This document shows, piece after piece, positions 14,867-16,045 of a stretch of DNA of 64,000 bases. Source of the stretch: Synechococcus elongatus PCC 11801. Its GTDB lineage: Bacteria > Cyanobacteriota > Cyanobacteriia > Synechococcales > Synechococcaceae. Position 1 is the first letter of the stretch, and every line of letters begins with the position of its first letter. The notes under the pieces were generated by a model. The model saw nothing but the letters and a program-made list of their open reading frames with translations. It was not told the origin of the DNA and searched no databases. Made by a program: the position numbers and the translations under genes. Location of the stretch: assembly GCF_003846445.2 (NCBI RefSeq), contig NZ_CP030139.2:62001-126000 (forward strand). Direction: 5' to 3'.

Positions 14867-16045
14867 ATGGATTTCGGAATCGGTTTTCTTTCCAGCAACG
14901 TGATGTTGCCGATCCTAGACTTCTTCTATGGATTGGTACCCAGCTATGGTTTGGCGATTATTGCGCTGACCTTAGTGATTCGGATCGCGCTCTATCCCCT
15001 CAGTGCCGGGGCGATTCGGAATGCGCGCCGGATGCGCATTGCCAATCCTGTCATGCAGAAGCGGCAGCAGGAAATTCGGGAGCGCTATGCCAACGATCCC
15101 AGCAAGCTGCAGGAAGAAACCTCCAAGCTATTCAAGGAATTTGGCAACCCGCTAGCGGGTTGCTTCCCCTTGCTGCTGCAAATGCCGCTGCTGTTTGCGC
15201 TGTTTGCCACCCTGCGGGGCTCGCCCTTTGCGGACATCAACTACACCGTCAATCTGCAAGTCTTGCCCTCAGAGCAGATTGCCCAAGTTCAGCCCCGTGC
15301 GTTTTCGACCAAGCCCCAAAACGTCTTTGTCGCCGATGGTGTGCACTACCGGGTCGCAGCTGTTCTACCAGCGGGCACCCAGCTGGGTGTGGGCGATCGC
15401 ACGACGGTAGCCTTCCAAGGCACGAACGGCGAATCGTTTGAGTCTTTGGTGGGCGATCGCGCTGCTGATTTAAAACCGACTTGGAGCGTGACCAAGGGCA
15501 GCGAACACATTCGGGTTGGCGAAGATGGCGTAGTCGAAGCCGTCTCTGCGGGTGACGCAACGCTGCAAGTCACGATTCCGGGTATTGCCGCCAACAACGG
15601 CTTCCTGTTTATCAAAGCCTTGGGCGAAGTCGGGATCCAGAGCGAAGACGGCATCAACTGGGATGTGTTGGGCCTCGTGTTGGCCTTTGGCGTCAGCCTC
15701 TACGTCAGCCAACAACTCTCCTCCCAAGGTGCTGCTCCCAATCCTCAGCAGGATCAGGTCAACAAAATTACGCCGGTGCTGTTCTCGGGCATGTTCCTGT
15801 TCTTCCCCCTGCCGGCTGGGGTGCTGATGTACATGGTGATCGCCAACATCTTCCAGACCTTGCAGACCTTCATCCTGATGCGGGAACCCCTGCCGGAAAA
15901 TCTGCAGAAATTGGTGGCGGAAGGTGCAGGCGGCACGGGTGGTAGTGGTCTGAGCACAGCTTCGGCTAAAAATCAGACGATTGACACCACGGCGGAACGG
16001 TTACCTTTTGAACCCGGCGGCAATCGCAAGAAGAAAAACGGATGA
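14867..16045 (+). CDS. yidC: Membrane protein insertase YidC/Oxa1/Alb3 with Ig-like loop insert
   Basis: 392-residue insertase for inner and thylakoid membrane proteins. The layout is a first membrane helix pair within residues 12-45, a charged cytoplasmic helical hairpin (50-95), a helix near 100-117, a long extracytoplasmic loop (about 124-262), then helices near 265-283 and 300-337, and a basic tail ending KKKNG. The conserved [16 protein letters not shown] and [12 protein letters not shown] stretches are present. Residues 198-248 of the loop resemble a Big_2-type immunoglobulin-like domain. It overlaps the jag-like gene by four bases. Confidence 0.95.

Follow-up and report, generated by a model that had tools for sequence, protein, structure and literature searches.

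The yidC gene in the 64,000-nt stretch of Synechococcus elongatus PCC 11801 DNA analysed here (the window) raises the question of what the first extracytoplasmic loop of its product holds, where this material came from and what it does there. The gene (14867..16045) lies, like all the features described below, on the + strand and encodes a 392-aa Oxa1/YidC/Alb3 insertase. The open reading frame matches PF02096 (122.6 bits, cut-off 35), TIGR03592 (196.3 bits, cut-off 84.3) and NF002734, the NCBIfam model for cyanobacterial YidC (650.2 bits, cut-off 324), and it is the sole PF02096 match in the genome. The 163 model positions of PF02096 are stretched across residues 27–339. Upstream lie genes for a ribonuclease P protein and a bacterial PH-domain protein, and downstream R3H and YceD genes. 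R39 in the first core helix, which we take to be the arginine of the YidC groove, is invariant in 17 of 17 aligned rows. Unlike E. coli YidC, the protein has no N-terminal TM1/P1 block.

The original prediction placed an extra region at residues 124–262, between two membrane helices that are linked by a short loop in most Oxa1/YidC proteins; these are core membrane helices 2 and 3. The coordinates are correct (first base of residue 124 at 15236, last base of residue 262 at 15652), and the position was borne out by alignment. E. coli YidC residues 329–443 align to window residues 2–119, and residues 468–533 align to 271–339; between these core blocks there are 24 residues in E. coli versus 151 in the window YidC. 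In all 15 YidC proteins sampled from other classes of the phylum the helix 2–3 stretch is 35 to 76 residues long, and the insert is absent from them. The window YidC carries about 110–120 residues beyond the ordinary short loop. Core membrane helix 2 (residues 95–117, 15149..15217) directly precedes the insert; it was assigned from a low-confidence model helix and from alignment to the YidC proteins of E. coli and B. halodurans. Core membrane helix 3 (residues 265–286, 15659..15724) was taken from the full-length AlphaFold model. The joint between the insert and helix 3 is a conserved FLFI segment (residues 245–256, 15599..15634) found by alignment, which is also present in insert-less YidC: most short-form proteins keep an FLFI-like segment directly before helix 3. 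The alignments place the cyanobacterial extra residues between helix 2 and this segment. The octamer GCGATCGC, the known HIP1 repeat, is present in 181 copies in the window (2.17 expected from shuffles); two copies fall within the insert (15393–15400 and 15453–15460) and both encode GDR.

The P1 domain of E. coli YidC is an extracytoplasmic beta domain that is added to the Oxa1 core ahead of the core helices, and we take the E. coli region before residue 329 to be P1. The insert could be its counterpart in so far as both are extracytoplasmic beta domains of YidC. The name P1 is also given to the periplasmic region of cyanobacterial YidC in a 2026 paper (Exploring thylakoid emergence, New Phytologist, PMC13326532; preprint PMC13174344). 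The insert, however, follows core helix 2, whereas the large extra region of E. coli YidC precedes residue 329, and the E. coli chain aligns solely to the core flanking the insert. The two domains lie in different loops, and we consider their equivalence very improbable. As a region of YidC the insert is already known, both from this discussion under the name P1 and from NF002734 (PRK02654.1). That model spans the insert, which alone scores 199.1 bits at model positions 118–267, and its listing gives no domain annotation for the region.

Searched alone, the window insert matched no Pfam family at E 10 or E 1, did not reach the Big_2 gathering score, and returned no domain name from NCBIfam. 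Its identity was therefore derived from the inserts of relatives and from profiles. Big_2 (PF02368) is the commonest Pfam match among 53 cyanobacterial inserts including the window's own (16 of 53 at E ≤1, best 1.3e-4); the next family matched 3 of 53. Six inserts were scanned, five of them Gloeobacter-like and the sixth from another cyanobacterium (L142, genome G086); three scored above the Big_2 gathering score of 22.8 bits: the Gloeobacter-like G406 (35.9 bits) and G415 (26.3), and G086 (23.4). The remaining Gloeobacter-like inserts stayed below it (G013, 18.8; G450, 18.4; G442, no match). The G086 insert was also recovered by a blind PF02368 search, at the site where the insert profile places YidC. 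An hhalign comparison of the 53-insert profile with one built from 18 Big_2 domains of the phylum gave a match across insert columns 46–124 (probability 94.1, E 1.3e-7). It scored 43.9; none of 100 column shuffles exceeded 15.1, and the reversed profile reached 13.8. A profile of the homologous inserts from a sister class (see below) matched Big_2 with probability 88.9 and E 2.4e-6, and none of 21 sister-class inserts searched singly against Big_2 gave a match at E 1.

Structure prediction agreed with a beta-rich domain. The full-length AlphaFold model of the window YidC has a mean pLDDT of 60; residues 121–240, taken in blocks of ten, have values of 66–89, mostly above 80, and consist of strands and a helix at 191–200. 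A model of the insert only (residues 119–258, built from 17 sequences) gave a mean pLDDT of 84.6 and a pTM of 0.74, and is predicted to be an all-beta domain with one helix. YidC relatives were sought in viral contigs to enlarge the alignment and none was found. In Foldseek the full-length model matched E. coli and B. halodurans YidC, followed by noise. The insert model had no PDB match at E <0.001, and its best match was a phage SU10 protein (E 0.0069). A second structural aligner gave the same phage protein at Z 7.2, and a nuclear pore chain, a mycobacteriophage protein, Big_2-CBM56 (7r3t, 7quz) and LigA at Z 5.0–6.2 (7r3t, 5.6; LigA 8gyr, 5.0). The named Big_2 structures scored Z 5.3–5.6, and every Z value is under 8, the caution line of the tool, below which a match may reflect merely a shared arrangement. 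The alignments cover model residues 36–43 to 121–127. The structural matches are consistent with an Ig-type Big_2 fold and do not prove it. A search of the insert sequence profile against PDB chains gave only weak matches (best E 0.02), which included many retinoic-acid-binding chains and a phage Hoc-like protein, and was given no weight.

From the orthologues over the Pfam cut-off, the profile match with its shuffle controls, the beta-rich model and the structural matches to Big_2 proteins, the insert is very probably a diverged Big_2-type Ig-like domain by descent, as had been predicted. The Big_2 HMM search supported this for the orthologues and not for the window insert itself; the window copy is Big_2-derived and diverged, and is not classed as a plain Big_2 member. 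The limits of the Big_2-like unit had to be revised from residues 198–248 to about residues 158–242 (15338..15592), on the basis of the hhalign match (approximately 165–242) and the structural alignments (158–243). Ahead of it, residues 124–157 (15236..15337) form an additional strand (124–133) and a connecting loop in both the full-length and the insert-only models. The helix at residues 191–200 (15437..15466), also in both models, lies inside the Ig-like domain and is found in cyanobacteria except the Gloeobacter-like ones. The window insert shares with Big_2 a strand-rich unit with a final G-x-x-T/V strand, and differs in its divergence, the extra helix and the extra N-terminal strand. Big_2 domains usually occur in a chain of surface repeats, whereas this one sits within the loop of a membrane protein.

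The insert is conserved in other cyanobacteria. Its profile matches 284 of 291 genomes of Cyanobacteriia (257 of 260 of good quality), and two of the seven misses (G004 and G011) have no YidC match either. It is kept even in the 1.6–1.7 Mb genomes of family f2 and in all nine Gloeobacter-like genomes examined. Its mean pairwise identity is 0.46 versus 0.77 and 0.69 for the core parts of YidC. The positions conserved in at least 90% of 51 rows, a count that omits L046 (truncated) and L048 (ending before the insert), are chiefly glycines and prolines, plus Y126 and H160 (0.96 each), W206, A225 and T232, and they include no catalytic-looking set. Alignment columns corresponding to the helix (approximately 193–201) are filled in 50 of 50 non-Gloeobacter cyanobacterial rows and empty in both Gloeobacter rows. 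In a second set, which overlaps the first by three of its seven other genomes and two of its nine Gloeobacter-like genomes, these columns are filled in 7/7 others, and the helix is absent or reduced to a few residues in 9/9 Gloeobacter-like genomes. At the level of the alignments, this ten-residue helix is the clearest, and the only, difference between the inserts of thylakoid-bearing and Gloeobacter-like cyanobacteria. The sequence difference itself is observed; its direction, in which the thylakoid-bearing lineages would have added the helix, is our inference.

The helix result agrees with PMC13174344/PMC13326532, which describe the region as conserved in cyanobacteria, lacking some residues in Gloeobacterales and having extra helix loops in the others. 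The term "Ig-like" does not occur in the main text of PMC13174344, and Big_2 is not named in its passages on the region; the main text of Exploring thylakoid emergence makes no mention of Vampirovibrionia, Melainabacteria or Sericytochromatia. In PMC13174344, Slr1471, which is YidC in other papers, is once called a V4R-domain protein; the figure legends there say Slr0147, and this is likely a typing slip. Among open-licence papers, judged by titles and the opening of abstracts, we found no relevant one on YidC with an Ig-like or immunoglobulin-like domain. The same literature gave no YidC insertase paper naming Big_2 among the matches listed, and none on YidC with Vampirovibrionia or on a Melainabacteria YidC periplasmic domain.

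Chloroplast Alb3 shares the core family and topology with the window YidC, according to PMC8733628. Fusion sites in its stromal loops 1 and 2 are given there at positions 186 and 304, 118 residues apart, as compared with an estimated distance of about 218 residues in the window YidC. This spacing suggests that Alb3 is without the insert. In PMC2706819, Alb3 is not clearly grouped with cyanobacterial YidC, which would fit an insert-less Alb3.

A homologous insert was found outside Cyanobacteriia. In a sister class, which we infer to be Vampirovibrionia, a profile of that class's own inserts matches the YidC of 70 of 194 genomes at the same loop position (type A). All carriers belong to families f51, f53, f55, f56 and f57. 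Among 20 listed misses, 18 are in families f44, f54 and f58 and two (G310 and G345) have no YidC match; there are a further 104 misses beyond these 20. The cyanobacterial and sister-class insert profiles matched each other with probability 97.7 and E 1.4e-12 (score 73.6 vs at most 17.3 in 100 shuffles). The sister-class inserts are deeply diverged among themselves (14–58% identity to the first row). None of the 26 sister-class genomes tested, of which 22 have this insert and four do not, has the photosystem reaction-centre family, which both cyanobacterial controls have. Eight f53 genomes (G322, G343, G367, G372, G377, G380, G395 and G400) have two insert matches in one frame, i.e., a tandem insert; in the one checked (L117:1768–2547) the two halves align at 31.5% identity with E 6.9e-20.

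A second kind of insert (type B) is found in the YidC of families f44, f52, f54, f58 and f59, with 25 sampled proteins (L049, L050, L058–L070, L091, L092, L095, L096, L100–L103, L106 and L115). Here the FLFI-like segment stands roughly as far behind helix 2 as in the short forms, and the additional residues come after the segment. The length of the insert is 115–138 residues in the nine proteins whose ends were located by pattern, and two such inserts scanned alone against Pfam gave no name. We considered whether type B is the first insert relocated and rejected this: a profile of 9 of the 25 inserts matched type A with probabilities of 0.3 and 2.2 and Big_2 with 3.1. Two proteins of family f43 (L076 and L077) have an intermediate YidC loop of 76 residues, in which the addition follows the FLFI segment.

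A tree was constructed from the YidC core with the insert region left out (185 columns; 16 of 51 non-Gloeobacter cyanobacterial proteins, the window's included, plus two Gloeobacter, 22 type-A, 25 type-B and 15 short-form proteins). The tree has one clade each for the short forms, the cyanobacteria, the first-insert proteins and the second-insert proteins, with supports of 100/99 for the cyanobacteria (16 plus two Gloeobacter) and 96/84 for the 22 type-A rows. First-insert and second-insert proteins group together with a support of 91/41, and the AU test rejects neither alternative (p-AU 0.454 and 0.351). By taxonomy both sister-class insert types are in one class. The simplest history would be one ancestral gain plus replacement in one branch: an unrelated domain of similar size, beyond the FLFI segment, probably took the place of the Ig-like domain in part of the sister class. 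A single gain is favoured, and the YidC of the ancestor that Cyanobacteriia share with the sister class probably had the insert already, at a time before oxygenic photosynthesis. With the deep order of the core tree open, two separate gains are possible. The same open order, in a tree of 185 columns alone, could accommodate transfer, by which the sister class or the cyanobacteria gained yidC or its domain later, so that the domain need not predate oxygenic photosynthesis. We regard transfer as distinctly unlikely, given that cyanobacterial and type-A rows are well-supported separate clades and that the sister-class inserts have themselves diverged so deeply.

What the domain does must be judged from this pattern. 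Sequence and prediction place the insert in the first extracytoplasmic loop, with core helix 2 on one side and the FLFI segment on the other. We propose that there, where the insertase opens to the periplasm or lumen, it would serve as a non-catalytic surface for docking and guiding. It would touch the Sec/SecDF translocon, emerging lumenal segments or assembly factors, and photosystem subunits would be merely its main clients in cyanobacteria. Docking is favoured because the domain is almost never lost, is doubled in some genomes and has an unrelated substitute in other relatives, and because the insert varies faster than the core and has conserved glycines and no catalytic-looking set. Published labelling that brings YidC within reach of lumenal probes counts in its favour too. 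The assignment is tentative and we rate it slightly short of an even chance. The domain could instead be passive, a spacer or stabilising element that has no binding partner and persists through drift and dependence; this would likewise account for a conservation below that of the core and for the substitution of an unrelated domain in relatives, the other classes sampled having none. In the 2026 paper, 90% of the E. coli periplasmic domain is reported to be deletable. Retention in nearly all genomes of the class, the small f2 genomes among them, and conserved positions such as Y126 and H160 speak against a mere spacer, which we consider quite unlikely.

The original prediction had photosystem subunits as possible substrates, and a related reading, in part similar to that of the 2026 New Phytologist paper, is that the domain has assembly factors or lumenal parts of D1 as binding partners and owes its retention to photosystem assembly. 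The domain is near-universal in Cyanobacteriia and its 191–200 helix splits thylakoid-bearing from Gloeobacter-like lineages. In published work, YidC is labelled by PsbU-APEX2 in PCC 7002, which puts it within reach of lumenal probes, and Synechocystis YidC is near the oxygen-evolving complex and binds D1. But relatives that lack the reaction-centre family carry the homologous domain in the same position, so a photosystem-specific origin is not supported and a photosystem-only purpose fits less well. Gloeobacter-like lineages have the domain without the helix, the one checked (G013) having the reaction-centre family. We think it unlikely that photosystem assembly is what the domain was kept for; a later photosystem role within cyanobacteria may have been added. 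The account that we prefer combines Big_2 descent, an ancestral origin and a docking surface, and we hold it to be somewhat better than an even bet as a whole. A broader version of it we rate as evenly balanced: the Ig-like domain would be a pre-photosynthetic general envelope module, replaced in one sister branch (the loop being filled independently at least twice), to which thylakoids brought only the short helix.

D1 and other photosystem proteins are inserted by YidC, whose periplasmic region has lately been proposed to have aided the move of photosynthesis into thylakoids. The Big_2 identity, a position unlike that of E. coli P1 and the homologous domain in the sister class go beyond the literature found. 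With the ten-residue helix and the relatives that have no reaction centre, the identity and position of the domain narrow a vague proposal to a small, testable element. If this account is true, the helix and not the entire domain would be the element relevant to thylakoid targeting.
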